From Ferruginibacter paludis (GTDB taxonomy: Bacteria; Bacteroidota; Bacteroidia; Chitinophagales; Chitinophagaceae), in assembly GCF_030409685.1 (NCBI RefSeq), contig NZ_JAUFQJ010000014.1, positions 186,001 to 250,000 on the forward strand: a stretch of DNA of 64,000 bases. The letters are read 5' to 3'. A program made the translations under genes and the position numbers. The notes beneath the pieces are model-generated. The model saw only the letters and a program-made list of their open reading frames with translations, did not search any database and was not told where the DNA came from. Positions 34,431 to 44,194 of this stretch are shown piece after piece (the first letter of the stretch is position 1; every line of letters starts with the position of its first letter).

Positions 34431-35744
34431 TTAAGCAACCACTACTTCTCCCTCAATGTCATAATCGTATGCTTTGGTAATTTTTACGTTTACAAATTCA
34501 CCAATAGTTAATTTCTTTTTACTCTCAATAATCACTTCATTGTCTACTTCCACACTGTCAAATTCGGTACGGCCCAAATATCGTCCGGCTTCTTTTTTAT
34601 CAATCAGCACTTTAAAAACCTTCCCCACTTTTTCCTGGTTTTTTTCAAGGCTTATTTCCTGCTGCACTTCCATTATTTCCTGCGCACGTTCTTCCTTTTC
34701 TTCTGCGGGTATATTGTCAATCATGCTGTGGGCGCTGGTTCCCTCCTCGTGGCTGTAGGTAAATATGCCCATCCTGTCGAACCGCATCTTCTGCAAAAAT
34801 ATTTTTAATTCTTCCACATCATCCCTTGTTTCGCCGGGAAAGCCCGCTATCAACGTAGTGCGTAAACATATGTCCGGAATACGGTTGCGTATCTCGCCAA
34901 TCAAATCTTCCATCTCCTCCCTTGTTATCTGCCGCTTCATTAGTTGCAGCATGTTATTGGCTGCATGCTGCAAAGGCATATCCAGGTAATTGCAAATATT
35001 TTCCCTTTCTTTAATGGCATCAATAATTTCTATCGGAAATTTAGACGGGTAAGCATAATGCAAGCGTATCCATTCCAAACCTTTTACATCCGCGAGCGCA
35101 TGCAACAGTTTTGGCAATTCTCTTTTTTTATAAATATCCAGCCCGTAATAGGTTAATTCCTGGGCAATCAGCATTACCTCTTTTACGCCTCTGTCCACCA
35201 AACGTTTGGCCTCATCTACCAGCGATTCTATTGTTCGGCTAACATGCTGACCACGCATTAACGGAATGGCGCAAAACGAACAGGTGCGGTTACAGCCCTC
35301 ACTGATTTTCATGTACGCATAATGCTGCGGCGTATACAGTAACCGCTCGCCTATCAGGTCAGCTTTGTAATCAGCATTAAATTGTTTCAGCATGCCGGGC
35401 AATTCCATTGTACCAAAATAGGCATCCACTTCCGGTATCTCCGTCTCTAAATTATTTTTATATCGTTCGCTGAGGCACCCGGTTACATAGACTTTATCTA
35501 TCTTTCCGCGGCGCTTTAATTCCACCTGGTCTAAAATGGTATTGATGCTTTCTTCCTTTGCTTTTTCAATAAAACCGCACGTGTTTATTATTACGATGTT
35601 GTGGTCCTTTTTACCGCTTTCATGCACCACATCAATTTCATTGGCAATGAGCTGACCACTCAGCACTTCACTATCCACCATGTTTTTACTGCACCCCAGC
35701 GTAATGATGTTTACCTTATCCTTATGTAACGATTTTGTCTTCAT
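34431..35744 (-). CDS. rimO: Ribosomal protein S12 methylthiotransferase
   Basis: 437 residues. A radical-SAM enzyme that adds a methylthio group to an aspartate of ribosomal protein S12. The N-terminal MTTase domain has its three cysteines (TLGCSKNMVDSE, INTCGF, VTGCLSERY). The radical-SAM site is GCNRTCSFCAIP with the CxxxCxxC triad. A C-terminal TRAM domain closes the protein. In many Bacteroidota rimO follows ftsY directly; here ftsY lies about 7.5 kb away with other genes between. Confidence 0.96.
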   Translation of the reverse strand: MKTKSLHKDKVNIITLGCSKNMVDSEVLSGQLIANEIDVVHESGKKDHNIVIINTCGFIEKAKEESINTILDQVELKRRGKIDKVYVTGCLSERYKNNLETEIPEVDAYFGTMELPGMLKQFNADYKADLIGERLLYTPQHYAYMKISEGCNRTCSFCAIPLMRGQHVSRTIESLVDEAKRLVDRGVKEVMLIAQELTYYGLDIYKKRELPKLLHALADVKGLEWIRLHYAYPSKFPIEIIDAIKERENICNYLDMPLQHAANNMLQLMKRQITREEMEDLIGEIRNRIPDICLRTTLIAGFPGETRDDVEELKIFLQKMRFDRMGIFTYSHEEGTSAHSMIDNIPAEEKEERAQEIMEVQQEISLEKNQEKVGKVFKVLIDKKEAGRYLGRTEFDSVEVDNEVIIESKKKLTIGEFVNVKITKAYDYDIEGEVVVA

Positions 35745-35847: not shown

Positions 35848-38800
35848 TTAAGACTTTGAATTGCTGTTGTCAAAAATAGAAAACAATTTAACAAGGGCAG
35901 GAATACCAGCGCCCAGCGTGGCTATATAGGTAATTAGTTTGGAATAAGCTTCTTCCTGGGAGATCAGCAGGAAAACAAGAATGGCTACGATAACCATCAT
36001 CAGCGGTTTTTTTAACCTGCTCCAGTTGCCATTGTCCTTGATGAGCCTCTTAATTTTCATGGCTTCTGAATTGCCTATAGCCGTTAAAATGAAATTGCGG
36101 AAGCCTTTATTGAAAAGCTTTAATGTGCCGTCTGTTCTGATGATGACACCCTTTGCCAATAACATGGTAAGGTTGTAATCATCAAAAGAATTGACGAGGT
36201 TGTCTTCAGCAAGATCATAGAGTAAAAACTTTTCTTCCTTGGTTAACGATTGCCAGATATACATATAAAAATAATGCGACATCACCTGCAGTTTAAAAAC
36301 CATTTCATCTGCTTTTTGGGCTCTTTCATTTTCTGGCAACGAGCGGGCAACAGTCATTGCACATTCTCTCATTTTATTTAAGAAATGCGTATGCGCTGTT
36401 TCTTTCAGGATCACTTTATATTCTTCCGTAGCTTCTGCTACCGAGCTTTGCAGTGGAAAAACTACAATGCGGTAATGCCCCAGCAACACATGCCATCTTT
36501 CCAAATCCTGGCCCGGTATACCTTTTTCAGCAACAGACTGATCCAGTACCGAATCAAGAAATGCAACGGGGTGAATGGTAGAAAGGATGATTACCTTGCT
36601 GGTGTTTTGCAGCATGATTTGTTCCAGCAAATTCAGTTTAATACGGTTGGTTACGGCGTCCTGGATATTGTATTCAAAATGATTTACTATAATGAGCTTG
36701 TTTTTCGCATCCGTTAGTTTAGCAGTGAAGAGTTTCCATGCATCATCTTTTTCCCTGTCGTTTCCTATATCAGGAATATTGATCAGGTCTGCTATAACCA
36801 CATTGTTTTGAGGATCACTTTCTTTATAAACAAAGGGTGTGTTGCCATTGGCTAATGTTCCGTCGGCTATTTTCTCCAGCACCTGCGACAATTTGCCTGA
36901 GCCTGGCAGCCCAATAACAAACAACAGGTTATTTACTTTTTCATTGTTCAAAATTGAGTCATCTATTGTTCCCCACAAACTGAGATCGGGAAGATCAAGG
37001 CAAAATAATTTTTTCAGCACATTGTAAATAATAAAGTAAAACATCACCAGCAGCAGCAACAGGCAAATCCAAAATAGCCAGCCATTGTAAAATTTTTCGC
37101 CGTACAGTTTTGGCAGCCTGTAATTAAGGTTGGCTGCTGTTATTGAAAGACTGCTATCGCCACGATTTGCTGCAAGCGTGGTAACGGTAACGCTGTCATC
37201 TTTTCCTGCCCTTTTTAAAAGCGGACTGTAAAAAAAGGAGCTATCGGCCGCACCAGTCATATACATTTTATCTTCCAGCACTGCTTTGTCGCTGATGTCG
37301 ATTCTGAACATGGATAACAGGGTCGCTGTAAATTTTTCCTCTTTTGTATAGCCTGCTTCCAAAGGCAATTTTCTATACGCAATGTTTTTAATCCATGCGT
37401 CGTCATAATAATAACAAACGCCCCCAACATTGTTGTGTTGATTTACTTTTACCAACTGGTCATTTGTAAGTGTGGCAGGCAAACGCTTTGCGTATTGTAA
37501 CTGGCCGTAACGTGTGCCGATATGCTGCTCAAAATTGTAAGCCGTAACATAAAAAAACAGTATCGGCAAACCGCTGGTAAGCAGCAGCCTTGTTAAAGCC
37601 ATTAAGGTAAAACTATGCGCATAATTACCAGCGAAAATCCTACGCATAGACCGGCTGTATAAAAAGTATACCGCCGTCCTGCCGCACCGCAGCAAGAGCC
37701 AGCCAACGAAAAATATCAATAATTCATAGAGCGTAAATACCATCATATTCTTGCCATCCAGCACCCGGAGAGCGCCAAGATTTAACAACGTGATAAACAG
37801 GTAAAGCCAGCGGATGGTAGTTATTTTAAAACGGTAGTTTTCACGTTGCCCTGATTTTTTATACCTGTATGCAAACAATGAATTTAAAAAAAGAGAAGTA
37901 AATATCACAGAGAAAAAAAGTATAAAAAAATAGGTTAAAACGGAACTGAAATTGAAAAAAATAACCATCAGGACAAGTACAATGCAATTGGTAAGCGCTG
38001 CAACATTGTACTGGTTTACAGAAGATATTTTTGGGCCAACCCAACTGGTATCAAATAATTGCCTTTTGAAAAATGAGCGCTGCGAAGACACAAGGAACAC
38101 GCTAAAAAGCTGGAACACCAAAAATAAAAACAACAGCAGCATCATTGAAAAAGTAAAACTGTAAATTTCAACATCCCTGGTTTCTTTAAAACTGTTATCA
38201 CTAAAAATTACAATAAAATAGGGTAGGTTATTTACAGGTTGCACACTAACTGAATAGTCCCTGCTAAAATAACTGCTGGTAAAAGCATCGCTGGTCCTGG
38301 CTTCTATGCAGCTGCGCAATTTTTCATTTTCGGATAATTCACTTAGTAAATTTTCATTCAGGTTCCTGGCAGAGTCGGAATGGTATAAAACTTTGCCTGC
38401 TTCATCAATCATGGCAAATGTATAGCCAACCGGTGTCACAGGCTGGCGAAGGCTTTGCATGTTAAAAGACATAGCCGCAACCGTTGTGCCAGGCACTGTT
38501 GAGGGAATGGAAATGACCGAGGTAAAAGTACCGGTGGTCCAGGAAATAATCTGGTCAAGATAAAACGGCTGAGTAGCCGCGTGCTGGAGATGATAAGGCT
38601 TATTTTGGGAAATGTTTTTAAAATAAGCCCGCTGGCTGAAATTCCCATGTGGCGCATTTTTATCGCTGCTAATCCAGTTTATTTTTTCATCACCATTTTT
38701 GCCTAACCAATAAACCTGGTTAATACTGCCGGTTTGGGCAATAATGGCCAGCTTTTTCAGCGCTTCATTTTTGTTGCCTGACGCGTCTGCAATAGTTTCT

Positions 38801-39885
38801 GCATTGCTTAAGTTAACAATGTCCTTTTTGTACCGGGCCGTATCCGACGACACAAGGCTGTCGTACGATGTAATTTTTTCATATACGCTGTCAATTTCAT
38901 CTTTTAACGCACCGGTAATTTGCGTGGCCAGCACTGCCTTGGAATCAGGGCTGTTATCGGGCTTGAAAAAAAGATTGTATTTAACCAGCATAAAAAATAA
39001 CAGCGACATCAGCAGCATGGAAACAACAATCGTGGCAATACCATCCGTTACAGTAAGCCTGTCTGTGTTGCCCATCTGGTACAGCTTTATCCAGGGATAG
39101 GCAACTATGGTAATGAGTACAACTGTCAGCAGCAGCAATACGCCCTGTGAGGGTAATTGATTTTTTTCCTGCTGGTAATGTTTGTTGGATAACAGACCGG
39201 TTACCACCAACTGCCTGTCGGCAGTAAAACTTACCGGCTGAAAAAACAGCTTGTAATCTTTGCCACTTACGTTCAGGCTTTTGACGGCCGAACTGGTGAT
39301 GCCTCCTTTTTTGCCGGATAAGCTATCATTCAAAAAACCGATACCGGAAGAAAAATTTTCATACACCACCTGCCCGTCGCTGAAAACGATGTATTGATCA
39401 AACACATTGGCCGGTAACAGGTTTTTTATGAACTGTTCAAAAGTAAATTTCATCTGCATGCTGTAATGCAGGCTGTCATCTTTTTTATTACCGGATTGCA
39501 CCGTTGCCAGCAATGTAATTTGGCGGCTGTTGTTGTTTACAATGATGTTGAAATTACTGTCCGGATTATCTTTTGTATACTGACTATCGGGCACAGACAA
39601 GGTAAAATTGCTGGAGTTGTATCCTTTGATATATGCAAGCAGTGCAGGTCTTTTAGCAATACTGTCTTTGTATGCTACCAGGAGGTTATGCATCAGCGCA
39701 ATACTGTTGTCTATCTTGGCATGAATATTTTTATCAATATTCTGCAACGACCTGAAACGTTGTTCCTGTACACCTTTTTCATTTTGCGGCACATACAAAT
39801 AAAAATAACCAGCGCCCAGAAAAATCAGGAACAACAGGGTGACCAACACATCATTGTAATTTTTTGTAAAAGAGAAATACCGCAT
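35848..39885 (-). CDS. Large multi-pass sensor with Cache-like domains and a C-terminal P-loop NTPase-like region
   Basis: 1345 residues, not matched to any characterised protein. Visible order: TM1 (about 13-32); an extracytoplasmic region (to about 243); two TMs (about 247-307); a second extracytoplasmic region resembling a double Cache sensor (INQVYWLGKNGDEKINW, HGNFSQRAYFKN); a block of several TMs (about 593-790); a third outer region; a TM near 955-985; then a cytoplasmic part. That part has a Walker-A-like GLPGSGKLS (992-1000) in which the usual Ser/Thr after Lys is Leu, a Walker-B-like KLIIVNHFE (1063-1071), KVIILSTIHP (about 1097) and a winged-helix-like segment. One or two TMs close the chain. 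This suggests a STAND-like signalling ATPase worked by an outer ligand, but that is inference. Confidence 0.6.
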   Translation of the reverse strand: MRYFSFTKNYNDVLVTLLFLIFLGAGYFYLYVPQNEKGVQEQRFRSLQNIDKNIHAKIDNSIALMHNLLVAYKDSIAKRPALLAYIKGYNSSNFTLSVPDSQYTKDNPDSNFNIIVNNNSRQITLLATVQSGNKKDDSLHYSMQMKFTFEQFIKNLLPANVFDQYIVFSDGQVVYENFSSGIGFLNDSLSGKKGGITSSAVKSLNVSGKDYKLFFQPVSFTADRQLVVTGLLSNKHYQQEKNQLPSQGVLLLLTVVLITIVAYPWIKLYQMGNTDRLTVTDGIATIVVSMLLMSLLFFMLVKYNLFFKPDNSPDSKAVLATQITGALKDEIDSVYEKITSYDSLVSSDTARYKKDIVNLSNAETIADASGNKNEALKKLAIIAQTGSINQVYWLGKNGDEKINWISSDKNAPHGNFSQRAYFKNISQNKPYHLQHAATQPFYLDQIISWTTGTFTSVISIPSTVPGTTVAAMSFNMQSLRQPVTPVGYTFAMIDEAGKVLYHSDSARNLNENLLSELSENEKLRSCIEARTSDAFTSSYFSRDYSVSVQPVNNLPYFIVIFSDNSFKETRDVEIYSFTFSMMLLLFLFLVFQLFSVFLVSSQRSFFKRQLFDTSWVGPKISSVNQYNVAALTNCIVLVLMVIFFNFSSVLTYFFILFFSVIFTSLFLNSLFAYRYKKSGQRENYRFKITTIRWLYLFITLLNLGALRVLDGKNMMVFTLYELLIFFVGWLLLRCGRTAVYFLYSRSMRRIFAGNYAHSFTLMALTRLLLTSGLPILFFYVTAYNFEQHIGTRYGQLQYAKRLPATLTNDQLVKVNQHNNVGGVCYYYDDAWIKNIAYRKLPLEAGYTKEEKFTATLLSMFRIDISDKAVLEDKMYMTGAADSSFFYSPLLKRAGKDDSVTVTTLAANRGDSSLSITAANLNYRLPKLYGEKFYNGWLFWICLLLLLVMFYFIIYNVLKKLFCLDLPDLSLWGTIDDSILNNEKVNNLLFVIGLPGSGKLSQVLEKIADGTLANGNTPFVYKESDPQNNVVIADLINIPDIGNDREKDDAWKLFTAKLTDAKNKLIIVNHFEYNIQDAVTNRIKLNLLEQIMLQNTSKVIILSTIHPVAFLDSVLDQSVAEKGIPGQDLERWHVLLGHYRIVVFPLQSSVAEATEEYKVILKETAHTHFLNKMRECAMTVARSLPENERAQKADEMVFKLQVMSHYFYMYIWQSLTKEEKFLLYDLAEDNLVNSFDDYNLTMLLAKGVIIRTDGTLKLFNKGFRNFILTAIGNSEAMKIKRLIKDNGNWSRLKKPLMMVIVAILVFLLISQEEAYSKLITYIATLGAGIPALVKLFSIFDNSNSKS

Positions 39886-40149
39886 GGAGTATAGTTTACA
39901 GAGGTATTACAGCAGCATGAAATTTAAAAACCATCATGAGTTGGTACCCATTTAAAAAAACATTGCAGTAAAGAGGAGGGGATTTCGCAGGTTGAATTAT
40001 CAGCCTTTAAAACTATAGAGATTAATTGGCATTCGCAATAGCCTGTTTGCGTAATTTTTAACCGGTGGAATTAGCTCACCTTCTCAAAAATAACAAAAGG
40101 ATAATATGGAACGCTTTTTTAAAAGTTCAATTTTACAATTCATGTAAGA

Positions 40150-41511
40150 ATGATGACAGACAATAGCAACCATATAATTACAGCCAAAGACTTCGGCAAA
40201 AATTTTAGCTGGGGTGTTGCCATTGCAGCGGCTCAAAACGAAGGTGCCACCAACATTAATGGAAAAGGCAAAACCATTTGGGACACTTTTTCGCGGAGCG
40301 GCAGTAATATAAAAGGCGGCGCCAAACTTACCACGGCCTGCGATTTTTATTACCGGTACAAAGATGATCTGTTGCTGGTGAAAGCCCTTGGATTTTCCGT
40401 ATTCCGCTTTTCCATTTCGTGGGCGAGAATACTGCCGGACGGCACCGGTAAAATCAATAAAGAAGGCATACTTTTTTATCACCGGGTAATTGATGAGTGC
40501 ATCAAACTCGGACTTACACCCTATATAACCCTTTACCACTGGGATCTTCCGCAGGAGCTTGAAAACAGGGGCGGCTGGACGAATTATTTAATCATCAAAT
40601 GGTTCAGCCGTTTTGTATCTGTTTGCGCAGAGGCTTATGGCAATAAGGTTAAGCACTGGATCATTTTAAATGAACCGTTTGGATTTACGTCCCTCGGCTA
40701 TATGCTGGGCAAGCATGCGCCGGGTAAAAAAGGGCTCAGTAATTTTATACCCGCCATTCATCATGCAGCTATGGCGCAGGCAGAAGGAGGAAGAATCATT
40801 CGCCGAATGGTGGAGGCTGCCCATATTGGAACTACCTTTTCCTGCTCACAGATCATTCCTTATTCCGACAGAAAAGAAGACCTGGCCGCTGCTAACCGCA
40901 TTGATATTTTAATGAACCGTTTGTTTATTGAACCTGCACTGGGAAAGGGTTATCCCGTAGATGATTCATTTAAATTTTTAGAAAAATTACAACTGCATAA
41001 TAAAACCTGGAAGTATACAGAGCGGCTGCATTTTGATTTTGATTTTATCGGGCTGCAATATTATTTTCCGGTAATGGTTAAGCACAATAGTTATGTACCG
41101 ATAGTACAGGCAACCCAGGTAAAACCAACTTCCAGAAAATTACCGGTTACTGCCATGGGCTGGGAAATTAACGCCGATAGTTTTTACCGCACTATAAAAA
41201 AAATATGGTTGTATGGAGGCGTAAAAGAAATCATCATAACAGAAAATGGTGCCGCGTTTAAAGATGAAATTAAACATGGGGTTATTGATGATGCGGAACG
41301 GATTGCCTATTTTAAACAACACCTGCAGGCGGTATTAAAAGCAAAAAAAGAAGGTGTCAATATCAGGGGCTATTTTGCCTGGACGCTGATGGATAATTTT
41401 GAATGGAGTGAAGGCTACCATCCCCGCTTTGGTTTGGTACATGTGGACCTGAAGACACAATTACGTACTATCAAAAACTCAGGTTACTGGTGGCGGGATT
41501 TTTTACAGTAA
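40150..41511 (+). CDS. Glycoside hydrolase family 1 beta-glucosidase-like enzyme
   Basis: 453 residues, full length. GH1 retaining glycosidases split beta-linked glucosides or galactosides. The acid/base Glu175 lies in LNEPFGF and the nucleophile Glu365 in IITENGAAF. Other landmarks are FSWGVAIAAAQNEGA, FRFSISWARILPDG, TLYHWDLPQ and WTLMDNFEWSEGY. No signal peptide, so it is cytoplasmic and would act on small imported sugars. No sugar transporter or regulator lies beside it. The exact substrate is not readable from sequence. Confidence 0.93.
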   Translation: MMTDNSNHIITAKDFGKNFSWGVAIAAAQNEGATNINGKGKTIWDTFSRSGSNIKGGAKLTTACDFYYRYKDDLLLVKALGFSVFRFSISWARILPDGTGKINKEGILFYHRVIDECIKLGLTPYITLYHWDLPQELENRGGWTNYLIIKWFSRFVSVCAEAYGNKVKHWIILNEPFGFTSLGYMLGKHAPGKKGLSNFIPAIHHAAMAQAEGGRIIRRMVEAAHIGTTFSCSQIIPYSDRKEDLAAANRIDILMNRLFIEPALGKGYPVDDSFKFLEKLQLHNKTWKYTERLHFDFDFIGLQYYFPVMVKHNSYVPIVQATQVKPTSRKLPVTAMGWEINADSFYRTIKKIWLYGGVKEIIITENGAAFKDEIKHGVIDDAERIAYFKQHLQAVLKAKKEGVNIRGYFAWTLMDNFEWSEGYHPRFGLVHVDLKTQLRTIKNSGYWWRDFLQ

Positions 41512-41571
41512 TCATTGAACAAATTCATTTGCTGCGTGCAACAAAGGCCTGAAAAATCTGTTGTGACAAGC

Positions 41572-42192
41572 ATGAATACGGTATTGATAAACGACACAAG
41601 CTTTACCCTTAAGGAACTGGAACAGGAGGTGTGGAAACGGTTGGAAAAAGGAGCACTTAGTTATAAAGATGCGCTGCACAATCCTGTTGTGGCCAATGTC
41701 AATACAGATGGCGTAAACATGCGCACGGTGGTATTGCGAAAAGTGTGGCCACCTCAAAAACAACTCGCCTTTTATACCGATAAAAGGAGTGGCAAATGGA
41801 AAGAACTTGCCCTGCAAAATAACATCAGCTGGTTGTTTTACGATGCCGCAAAATGCATACAAATACGACTCAGCGGGGATGTAACATTGCACCATGATGA
41901 TGGCATTGCAGCTGAAAGCTGGGATGGCACTACCATGAACAACAGAAAAAATTATTCAGGAAGAGAACGGCCTTCCTCCGTGGTTGAATTCCCTCTAAGT
42001 GGTCTGCCTGCTGTATTTGAAACAAATGATCCAACGCCTGAAGAAAGTACTGATGGCAGAAAAAATTTTGGCGTTGTAATCACGAGGGTGCGATGGATGG
42101 AATGGTTGTGGCTTAACAGCAGCGGCCACCGCAGGGCCACATTTACTTATCTGGAAGATGGGAGTTTTACTGCAAACTGGCTTATTCCTTAA
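41572..42192 (+). CDS. Pyridoxamine 5'-phosphate oxidase-family FMN-binding protein
   Basis: Start ATG at 41572 (206 residues); a TTG 19 codons upstream would add a tail that does not fit the family. A split-barrel flavin domain is visible: VANVNTDGVNMRTVVLRKVW, FYTDKRSGKWKEL and a C-terminal segment with VRWMEWLWL and GHRRATF. The sequence departs from true PdxH, so an Alr4036-like FMN-binding or flavin-reductase role is as likely as vitamin B6 synthesis. It follows GH1 by 60 bases on the same strand and converges with the CvfB-like gene. Confidence 0.8.
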   Translation: MNTVLINDTSFTLKELEQEVWKRLEKGALSYKDALHNPVVANVNTDGVNMRTVVLRKVWPPQKQLAFYTDKRSGKWKELALQNNISWLFYDAAKCIQIRLSGDVTLHHDDGIAAESWDGTTMNNRKNYSGRERPSSVVEFPLSGLPAVFETNDPTPEESTDGRKNFGVVITRVRWMEWLWLNSSGHRRATFTYLEDGSFTANWLIP

Positions 42193-42206
42193 CCGGCATA
42201 ATATCC

Positions 42207-42234
42207 GGGTGAGCCACCCTTTTTGGGGTGACCC
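42207..42234. terminator. Shared terminator between convergent genes
   Basis: An outer stem GGGT/ACCC (42207-42210 with 42231-42234) and an inner stem CACCC/GGGTG (42215-42219 with 42226-42230) enclose a T-rich loop. It lies in the 48-base gap between the PPOx-like gene and the CvfB-like gene, which face each other, so it may serve both. There is no long T run after it. Confidence 0.5.
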
Positions 42235-42240
42235 ATCAAG

Positions 42241-43095
42241 CTACTCTTCCAGGAGCTTGATGCCCGTTTTTTCGAAAGCTATTTTTCTTTCTTTATACAA
42301 ATTTCCGGTTGTCATTTTAAAGGTCTTCTTGCTCATACCGAAAAAATCATAAATATCTTCCGGCTTGCTTTTGTCATTGTAAGGCAGGTAGCCATCGTTT
42401 TCCCTCAACAGGCGCAACAATTTTCCAGCTTCATCTTCTACCCTGTTATAGCCTGGTTTGCCTGCAGCCACATCAATGCGAAAACGATCATCTTTGTCAT
42501 TGCTTACGGGATATATTTTTTTGATGAACCCTTTAAATTTATCTCCTACACCTATGTTACGGTAAATTTCATTAAAATGCAATACACCTGTGTGCTGGTT
42601 GTTGATGATACACACATAACCAATATCAGTACGGCGGTATACAATCAGGTCTACTACTTCAAGCTCCTTTACGGTTAATTCTTCATTGCTTAAATACGGC
42701 TCCAGCTTTTCTGTAGCTGCAATGCGTCCGGTTTGTTCGTCCAGGTAAATCTTCACCAGGTATTCACCGTTTACCCGCATCTCGAATATTTGTTTGCTTT
42801 TGGGAACGAAAATATCTTTCATCAAACCCATATCTAAAAATGCACCGTGGGGAGTAACTGTCACTGTCCTTAACTTTACAATGTCACCCAATATGCCTTT
42901 CGGTTCCTGCGTAGTTGCAATCAACCTGTCTTCACCATCATGGTACAAAAAAACTTTCAATTCATCTCCAATTGCGGTTGCAGTTGGCACAAATCTTTTA
43001 GGCAATAAAATACCTTCTGCCCCGTCATCCAGGTACACCCCAAAATCTACCGCCCGTATAACTTTTAATGTATTGTATTTACCTACTTCTACCAT
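42241..43095 (-). CDS. CvfB-like S1 RNA-binding protein
   Basis: 284 residues. The CvfB order is clear: several S1-type OB folds (VIRAVDFGVYLDDGAEGILLPKR; TVTPHGAFLDMGLMKDIFVPKSK; YVCIINNQHTGVLHFNEIYR) and a winged-helix C-terminus (YNDKSKPEDIYDFFGMSKKTFK). CvfB proteins bind RNA and were first known as virulence-factor regulators in staphylococci. In this lineage the role is probably a general RNA-binding one. It lies 130 bases downstream of ftsY on the same strand. Confidence 0.88.
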   Translation of the reverse strand: MVEVGKYNTLKVIRAVDFGVYLDDGAEGILLPKRFVPTATAIGDELKVFLYHDGEDRLIATTQEPKGILGDIVKLRTVTVTPHGAFLDMGLMKDIFVPKSKQIFEMRVNGEYLVKIYLDEQTGRIAATEKLEPYLSNEELTVKELEVVDLIVYRRTDIGYVCIINNQHTGVLHFNEIYRNIGVGDKFKGFIKKIYPVSNDKDDRFRIDVAAGKPGYNRVEDEAGKLLRLLRENDGYLPYNDKSKPEDIYDFFGMSKKTFKMTTGNLYKERKIAFEKTGIKLLEE

Positions 43096-43225
43096 GGGAG
43101 AGAATTAAAAAATAAAAAGTGAAAATTAAAAACTGGCCCTTTTACCGGAACCACTTTTTAACTTATGTTACCCGCAATGAAATATTCTTAACAATAATCC
43201 CTTTGGGAAACGGGGAAATAGTTCT

Positions 43226-44194
43226 TTAGGCAACAGGTGCAAACAATCCTTCTACAAACTGGTGTTTATCAAAAACCAGCAGATCTGTTGCCTTTTCGCC
43301 TACGCCGATAAATTTAACCGGTATCTTAAACTGGTGGGCAATTGCCAGCACTACACCACCCTTCGCCGTGCCGTCTAATTTAGTAATTGTTAAGGCAGTC
43401 ACATCCGTTGCGGCGGTAAAATGTTTAGCCTGTTCCAGTGCGTTTTGCCCGGTACTTCCATCCAGCACCAGCATCACTTCGTGGGGCGCTTCGGGTATTA
43501 CTTTTTGAACCACCCTTTTTATCTTGGTCAGCTCATCCATCAGGTAAGCCTTGTTGTGCAAACGGCCTGCCGTATCAATGATGATCACATCCACGTCCTT
43601 GGCTACGCCGCTAATCACCGTATCGTAAGCTACTGATGCCGGATCACTACCCATTTCTTTTTTTACAATCGGCACGCCGGTTCGCTCACTCCATATTGTT
43701 AACTGGTCTACCGCAGCCGCCCTGAAAGTATCTGCGGCACCCAGCAACACCGATTTACCCGCCTTTGAAAAATTATGCGCCAGCTTACCAATGGTAGTTG
43801 TTTTTCCTACACCGTTTACACCTACTACCAAAATCACATGTGGTTTATGGCCTGCAGGTAATTCGTAATTTTCGTAACTGGTATCCGATGGCGAAGCCAC
43901 CAGTATATCTTCTACTTCCTGTTTAAGGATGGAGTTTAATTCGTTTGTGTTAAGATATTTGTCTTTTGCTACCCGCTTTTCTATGCGATTGATAATTTCT
44001 ACTGTCGTTTCAATACCTACATCTGCACTTACCAATGCTTCTTCCAGGTTATCCAACACCTCTTCATCCACAGTGCTTTTGCCGGCAATAGCTTTGGTTA
44101 TTTTGCTGAAAAAACCTTCCCTGGTTTTTTGCAATCCCTGATCCAGCGTTTCCTGCTGTTGCTTTTTACCGAAGAGTTTATCAAAAAGTCCCAT
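43226..44194 (-). CDS. ftsY: Signal recognition particle receptor FtsY
   Basis: 322 residues with a short N-terminal region, as is common in Bacteroidota. The NG domain holds GVNGVGKTTTIGKLAHNF (P-loop), the RAAAVDQL segment, DTAGRLHNKAYLMDEL and TKLDGTAKGG. It receives SRP-bound ribosomes at the inner membrane. It lies downstream of rpmB-rpmG-DUF4295, the usual order in the phylum, but two hairpins stand in the 144-base gap, so it may have its own promoter. Confidence 0.97.
   Translation of the reverse strand: MGLFDKLFGKKQQQETLDQGLQKTREGFFSKITKAIAGKSTVDEEVLDNLEEALVSADVGIETTVEIINRIEKRVAKDKYLNTNELNSILKQEVEDILVASPSDTSYENYELPAGHKPHVILVVGVNGVGKTTTIGKLAHNFSKAGKSVLLGAADTFRAAAVDQLTIWSERTGVPIVKKEMGSDPASVAYDTVISGVAKDVDVIIIDTAGRLHNKAYLMDELTKIKRVVQKVIPEAPHEVMLVLDGSTGQNALEQAKHFTAATDVTALTITKLDGTAKGGVVLAIAHQFKIPVKFIGVGEKATDLLVFDKHQFVEGLFAPVA

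Follow-up and report, generated by a model that had tools for sequence, protein, structure and literature searches.

The question raised by this locus is what signal a large membrane protein with no recognised family receives, and what it might control. The protein is encoded on the minus strand at 35848-39885 (coordinates including the stop codon) of a 64,000-nucleotide stretch of the Ferruginibacter paludis genome, contig NZ_JAUFQJ010000014.1, which we refer to as the window. The open reading frame (ORF) has an ATG start, encodes 1345 residues and contains no internal stop. Direct domain scans of the protein gave no significant match in Pfam, NCBIfam or PADLOC-DB 2.0.0 (0 matches in the last), and sequence searches of the PDB with full-length, NTPase-to-end and C-terminal profiles returned only chance-level matches (best E 0.07). 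Judged by titles and the opening text of abstracts, no description of such a protein was found in the literature. We tentatively read it as a ligand-sensing membrane receptor that carries a pseudo-NTPase and belongs to a family gating co-encoded hydrolases, with the copy in the window being an orphan.

A dCache sensor joined to a degenerate P-loop-like domain

The first-pass annotation, made from the sequence of the window, described an uncharacterised membrane protein with three outer regions, many transmembrane (TM) segments and a cytoplasmic NTPase-like part followed by further TM segments. The ORF, hydropathy and motifs bear out this layout. TM stretches lie near residues 10-33, 242-270, 277-308, 571-603, 623-673, 691-709, 713-740, 759-780 and 931-963, with a C-terminal hairpin at residues 1288-1339; the stretch 623-673 is long enough for two segments, and about ten are read in total. 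By alternation of these hydropathy-based segments, residues 34-241, 309-570 and 781-930 were assigned to the outside and residues 964-1287 to a single cytoplasmic region. The features are as follows, with their basis in brackets; pLDDT is the predicted local distance difference test and dN/dS the ratio of nonsynonymous to synonymous substitution rates.

35848-39885, minus strand: whole gene, 1345-residue membrane protein (full-length relatives, dN/dS)
39163-39786, minus strand: outer region 1, residues 34-241, a long helix and then a beta-rich part (N-terminal model, hydropathy)
38176-38958, minus strand: outer region 2, dCache sensor domain, residues about 310-570 (fold match, Foldseek, Pfam in relatives, conserved residues)
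37546-38175, minus strand: TM bundle, residues 571-780 (hydropathy)
37096-37545, minus strand: outer region 3, residues 781-930 (hydropathy, identity comparison)
36391-36933, minus strand: degenerate P-loop NTPase-like domain, residues 985-1165 (fold and motifs)
36886-36912, minus strand: degenerate Walker A motif GLPGSGKLS, residues 992-1000, with Leu999 replacing Ser/Thr (alignments)
36670-36696, minus strand: Walker-B-like strand LIIVNHFEY, residues 1064-1072, with Asn1068 replacing Asp (alignments)
36031-36303, minus strand: winged-helix-like segment, residues about 1195-1285 (conservation; model pLDDT mostly under 50)
35851-36030, minus strand: C-terminal TM hairpin, residues 1286-1345 (hydropathy, alignment)

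Outer region 2 is a dCache domain by fold and by position, having a double-Cache fold that is periplasmic and lies between TM segments. Residues 310-568 matched the dCache domains of chemoreceptors and sensor kinases with Z 16.4 and a root-mean-square deviation of 3.3 over 219 aligned residues. The whole N-terminal AlphaFold2 model (mean pLDDT 70) gave 77 Foldseek matches at E<=1e-3, mostly to dCache domains among the 50 listed. The Pfam profile dCache_1 (PF02743) found no match in the window protein itself and matched 7 of 15 close members of the family (best 4.7e-13) and 9 of 25 wide members, with one relative, L046, reaching 46.2 bits against a cut-off of 45. In the 25-row alignment R419 is invariant and Y421 is present in 90% or more of rows. 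The annotation had proposed Cache-like sensors in the plural; this stands for outer region 2 and is plausible for outer region 1, which could possibly hold a single Cache domain, and it finds no support in outer region 3. No fold is assigned to outer region 1, where dCache rows of region 2 took up the match list, or to outer region 3. The latter is the least conserved of seven compared regions in 13 of 14 comparisons, with 18-95% identity to the window protein.

The cytoplasmic region resembles a P-loop NTPase in arrangement and motifs. Its model is weak (mean pLDDT 56); strands and helices alternate in it, and the P-loop joins the first strand and helix. A sensor-like strand, KVIILSTIHP, begins at residue 1097. 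All of the 50 VIA matches listed for this low-confidence model were AAA+ or other P-loop proteins by title, at Z 5.9-7.1 over 113-171 residues, and a Z of about 7 is the level at which the tool warns of a possibly common arrangement. Foldseek with the same model found nothing at E<=1e-3 (best E 5.9e-3). In a relative, L047, ten AAA-type or NB-ARC models matched at E 0.005-0.2, all under their cut-offs. The P-loop motif itself is not a chance occurrence, as GxPGxxK is present in 14 of the 15 close members (L008 reads SLPGAGK) and P994, G995 and K998 are invariant in all 15, window included. The Leu after the P-loop Lys, which the annotation had singled out as unusual, is a trait of the clade: this position is Leu in 11 close members, Lys in 2, Met in 2 and Ser or Thr in none, and all 15 have Asn where the Walker B Asp would be. 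In P-loop enzymes, the Ser/Thr after the Lys and the Walker B Asp are Mg ligands. From these substitutions we consider that NTP hydrolysis has probably been lost in the clade of the window protein.

Across a 31-row alignment of the wider family, 2 members have a canonical P-loop, 18 a degenerate one and 11 none with GK, and GK[ST] occurs in 2 of 31. The canonical members read GPPGSGKT (L047) and GLPGSGKS, the latter with IDHFEY (L048); L054, one of the 11, retains a GPYYSGRT remnant, and L006 and L046 additionally lack the second P-loop Gly. The interval from the last TM segment to the winged helix spans 207-269 residues in 23 of 31 rows, is longer in L007, L008, L052 and L060, and by hydropathy is shortened to 138, 97 and 83 residues in L055, L056 and L057, in which the NTPase-like domain is clearly lost. 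A short value for L016 is an artefact of a spurious hydrophobic stretch, and L053 seems by alignment to be without the domain, a loss that is not visible in its hydropathy reading (261). When the NTPase columns were left out, a tree of 28 rows placed the two canonical members in different clades and required at least six changes of state. We read this as repeated decay of the nucleotide-binding core within the family. The annotation had regarded a P-loop that was not conserved in orthologues as grounds for rejecting its proposal, and the outcome is divided: the close clade retains the Lys, and the rest of the motif decays. With canonical, degenerate and deleted forms of the NTPase side by side, the family lends itself to testing the role of an ATPase core in such receptors. 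Separately, in two Ferruginibacter members (L007:7956-12341 and L008:8001-12338) a carboxypeptidase-regulatory-like domain lies after the NTPase-like core and before the winged helix, an unusual location, as this domain is usually found outside the cytoplasm.

The winged-helix-like segment has the highest conservation in the protein, with 70-99% identity between the window and 14 relatives, and together with the hairpin it is retained in members where the NTPase-like domain has decayed or vanished. Its region is modelled as helices and two short strands at a pLDDT mostly under 50. When this C-terminal module was searched alone, 7 of 340 Bacteroidota genomes matched, six of them in frames of 1191-1561 residues and all in known family genomes; the seventh (G197), a short weak match in a 70-residue frame with a stop, was not counted. 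No other architecture carrying the module was seen in these 340 genomes.

Hydrolase genes beside the relatives

A same-strand gene lies within 65 bp upstream of the receptor gene in 14 of 33 loci, the window being among the 33. These runs contain a hydrolase, recognised by Pfam or by clustering with one, in 13 of 14 cases; only that of L013 has none recognised. The partners, adjacent to the receptor gene or elsewhere in its run, are:

Patatin: L005 and L010 (Pfam); L006, L014 and L016 (clustering); L062 (clustering and Pfam)
Tle1-like: L012, overlapping downstream; L060, 53 bp upstream
a/b-hydrolase-like (below the Pfam cut-off) and subtilase: L056
Trypsin, two genes upstream: L055
M19 and amidohydrolase, with further M19, papain and caspase downstream: L047
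Amidase_2: L005 and L010
GH19: L002 (Pfam); L003 (clustering)

Several partners resemble effectors. In PADLOC searches, the patatins of L010 and L005 matched phospholipase effectors at E 1.9e-26 and 1.4e-47, respectively, and the L047 caspase matched an effector model; the L047 family member itself also matched MkoA (1.5e-5) and mad8 (3.9e-4), each over fewer than 40 residues at the P-loop. Ten family-bearing genomes have 2-6 patatin matches each, 2-5 of them above cut-off, and a patatin abuts the receptor gene in 6 loci. With so few patatin matches per genome, chance is an unlikely cause of the adjacency seen for two separate patatin clusters, although several of these loci are close kin. Partners accompany canonical (L047), degenerate (L005 and L010) and domain-less (L055 and L056) members alike, and the NTPase is therefore not needed for the association with hydrolases.

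The window copy has no same-strand hydrolase partner adjoining its gene. A partner operon elsewhere in the genome was considered and rejected, as searches with the c2 protein (below) and its profile found nothing there and the six patatin matches, five above cut-off, lie on other contigs. As a separate observation, a protein with eCIS_core (DUF4157) and OmpA domains (L010:2649-4055) shares its run with the L010 patatin and receptor genes. Its cluster is also present in L014 and L016, a hint of some connection with contractile injection systems.

A second membrane protein, c2 (L010:4258-5487), is encoded near the receptor gene in 7 of the 33 loci; its L010 copy received no Pfam or NCBIfam name on scanning. 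The c2 profile matched 36 of 396 Bacteroidia genomes. To look beyond the family we used 20 stretches around c2 loci outside it (L116-L135), of which 19 keep the c2 ORF. In 13 of these 19, a same-strand hydrolase, labelled as such by BLAST matches to proteins from family loci, lies within two genes of c2 or is fused to it; in L119 and L127, c2 is fused to a trypsin-like part. The neighbouring hydrolases are again swappable (trypsin, subtilase, amidohydrolase and M19), often with a c52 protein that has a signal-peptide-like start. Possibly c2 marks an effector operon of its own that has not been described. Genome-level co-occurrence of c2 with the receptor family was rejected as evidence: c2 is present in 5 of 14 family genomes compared with 36 of 396 overall (P 0.005, assuming that both profile searches drew on the same 396 genomes), and the signal is circular, three of those five genomes having supplied seeds for the profile.

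Possible mechanism and competing explanations

Under the reading that we tentatively prefer, the periplasmic dCache domain, whose fold is supported, would sense a small molecule, and the signal would pass through the TM bundle to the cytoplasmic P-loop-NTPase-like domain. That domain may act as a scaffold for conformational change or oligomerisation; we regard this pseudo-NTPase role as likelier than an ATP-driven switch, which is unlikely here. The conserved output would be the winged-helix-like segment with the TM hairpin. Judging from gene order, the receptor likely controls the effectors, and on ligand binding it may tether, restrain or release the hydrolases of its operon, which are swappable among patatin, Tle1-like, a/b-hydrolase-like, M19, trypsin and GH19 enzymes. 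The window copy would have been orphaned from such a system and maintained by selection in a slot of variable content between ftsY and rimO. Direct coupling of an extracellular small-molecule sensor to a degenerate NTPase, extended in relatives to exchangeable hydrolases, would let a membrane receptor enter effector control by a route that is absent from the compared portions of the conflict-system papers discussed below.

Several observations weigh against this reading. Some of the 14 loci with a tightly spaced upstream gene are close kin, 19 of the 33 loci (window included) have no such gene, and the a/b-hydrolase of L056 falls under its Pfam cut-off. The cytoplasmic model is weak, as noted above, and placements in the tree are shaky owing to long branches, its root not being inferred. 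Without the seeding genomes, c2 is found in 2 of 11 family genomes compared with 33 of 393 (P 0.23), which leaves genome-level co-occurrence not established; moreover, c2 is present in 31 genomes that lack the family and was not found in the window's genome by protein or profile search.

A bolder form of the proposal, which we regard as doubtful, is that these loci represent an undescribed modular effector system of Bacteroidota whose interchangeable lethal hydrolases are gated by a dCache receptor facing outward, not by a cytoplasmic sensor of invaders, with the ATPase being discarded in evolution while the winged-helix and TM-hairpin output stays. If so, the scaffolding of an immune-like receptor would have changed from being driven by NTP to being driven by a ligand.

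An envelope-homeostasis sensor, reading a periplasmic metabolite and adjusting enzymes of lipid or peptidoglycan remodelling with no role in conflict or cell death, is rather unlikely. The partners do include Amidase_2, GH19, patatin and an M19 dipeptidase, and dCache domains often sense small nutrients. However, the partners as a whole are highly varied, including caspase, papain, trypsin, subtilase and Tle1-like proteins, which looks more like effector exchange, and the family is distributed patchily.

The annotation had favoured a STAND-type switch driven by an outer ligand. This explanation, under which Leu after the Lys would be tolerated and nucleotide still cycled, is distinctly unlikely. 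In its favour are the invariance in all 15 close members of P994, G995, K998 and the Glu of the HFE motif, the canonical GKT or GKS of two distant members, and a dN/dS of 0.09 in the NTPase region. However, neither mark of an active NTPase (GK[ST] and the Walker B Asp) occurs in the clade of the window protein (0 of 15 for each), so that both Mg-coordinating positions are substituted throughout; L006 and L046 are without the second P-loop Gly and, more widely, 11 of 31 rows have no GK P-loop and three clearly lack the domain. One of the 15 close members matched nSTAND3 (E 0.0016), and NB-ARC (0.0099) and nSTAND1 (0.014) each matched one of 25 members. The nSTAND3 match was rejected as proof of STAND membership because the same model matched in all 14 of 14 control genomes at E<=0.001, above its cut-off in 7, and hence does not discriminate. 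As the STAND-profile matches are weak and non-discriminating, we call the domain P-loop/AAA+-like rather than STAND.

A membrane-tethered transcription regulator, whose winged helix would bind DNA and control neighbouring genes, is very improbable: the winged-helix-like segment is indeed the most conserved region, but a TM hairpin follows it directly, its fold is modelled at a pLDDT mostly under 50, and a winged helix after the P-loop core is a usual part of AAA+ and STAND modules.

Genomic slot, known systems and distribution

The gene lies between rimO and a GH1 gene, as had been annotated, with the following neighbours placed by context:

34431-35744, minus strand: rimO, downstream neighbour, 103 bp away on the same strand
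40150-41511, plus strand: GH1 gene, divergent upstream neighbour

Alongside the receptor gene, the interval between ftsY and rimO holds S1-domain, pdxH-like and GH1 genes (39886-43226), and copies of the receptor gene occupy the same slot in L001, L002 and L007. The window gene is intact and under purifying selection: compared with the 95% identical copy in L001, dN/dS is 0.12 for the whole gene, 0.09 for the NTPase-like region and 0.06 for the winged helix. A decaying or domesticated remnant with no present function in this genome, which the missing partner operon and decayed NTPase motifs would suit, is the least probable explanation given 1345 intact codons, these dN/dS values and the same-slot copies. 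In L007, the receptor is 47% identical over its best segment, compared with 93% for ftsY, 90% for rimO, 88% for S1, 78% for GH1 and 73% for EamA; in L002 it is 70% identical, similar to bshC (72%) and below rimO (94%) and S1 (95%). The receptor therefore evolves faster than most of its neighbours, although under constraint. The remark in the annotation that many Bacteroidota have ftsY next to rimO held for one of six genus relatives without the gene (L154, with 470 bp between them); no ftsY turned up in the remaining five within the sequence retrieved on that side (about 10 kb in four relatives and 3 kb in L155).

Among known proteins, dCache chemoreceptors and sensor kinases (PctA/B/C, DctB and Mlp24) share the periplasmic dCache fold between two TM segments, at Z up to 16.4. 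In contrast to these, the receptor family has no kinase, GGDEF or methyl-accepting chemotaxis protein output in Pfam scans, and adds a TM bundle, a third outer region and a P-loop-like and winged-helix-like output. KAP NTPases are likewise membrane-associated P-loop proteins, and have TM segments inserted between Walker A and B. By hydropathy, residues 1000-1068 of the window protein contain no TM stretch, and KAP was absent from the Pfam families listed for 25 members.

Closer in theme are the inactive STAND components (iSTAND and iSTAND2) of MoxR-vWA ternary conflict systems, which the available portions of two papers describe with variable effectors (Kaur 2020, PMC7159879; Kaur 2021, PMC8195603). 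As set out there, these share with our family an inactive NTPase domain, a multi-gene setting and interchangeable peptidase and other effectors. Unlike them, the receptor is a polytopic membrane protein with a dCache sensor, and no sequence relation was shown; the word 'cache' occurs 0 times in either paper. The annotated partners belong to families other than MoxR AAA+ and vWA, part of the neighbours in the 33 loci having been annotated with no systematic MoxR-vWA search. Avs and NLR-type proteins share the idea of a chain from sensor through NTPase to effector and, according to the available part of PMC10907252, Avs proteins place the effector at the N terminus and a repeat sensor at the C terminus; here the sensor is N-terminal and extracytoplasmic, and no fused enzyme was found. 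We therefore file the protein under the sensor/pseudo-NTPase/effector theme as a new variant, not as an iSTAND or Avs member.

The distribution of the family is patchy. A pattern scan of the GTDB genome collection, which reaches close relatives only, returned 16 loci, all Bacteroidota by title (Ferruginibacter, Taibaiella, Hufsiella, Mucilaginibacter, Pedobacter and a Sphingobacteriaceae bacterium). Among 59 genomes near the window's, 3 matched: its own, one with the 95% identical copy and one with a short weak match (G012, not counted). A single query matched 7 of 392 genomes in a phylum sample; in a class sample, the NTPase-to-end profile matched 14 of 396 and a wide profile 17 of 396, three of the latter being short weak fragments. 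Short weak matches (G012, G475, G694, G175 and G197) were left out of the family. So far it has been found only in Bacteroidota genomes, the wide profile having been run within Bacteroidota. Carriage by mobile elements was considered and rejected, as plasmid and phage collections gave no family match and none of the 31 viral-contig stretches matching the pattern was confirmed as a relative. The window's genome holds one copy and no wide-family paralogue. Elsewhere, one genome has two paralogues in frames of 1561 and 1191 residues (G268:C5:205130-208333 and G268:C4:184571-186664; L060 and L145), and the member at L050:7424-11761 is divided between two neighbouring ORFs (729 and 714 residues, 3 bp apart), representing either a real two-gene form or an inactivated copy.

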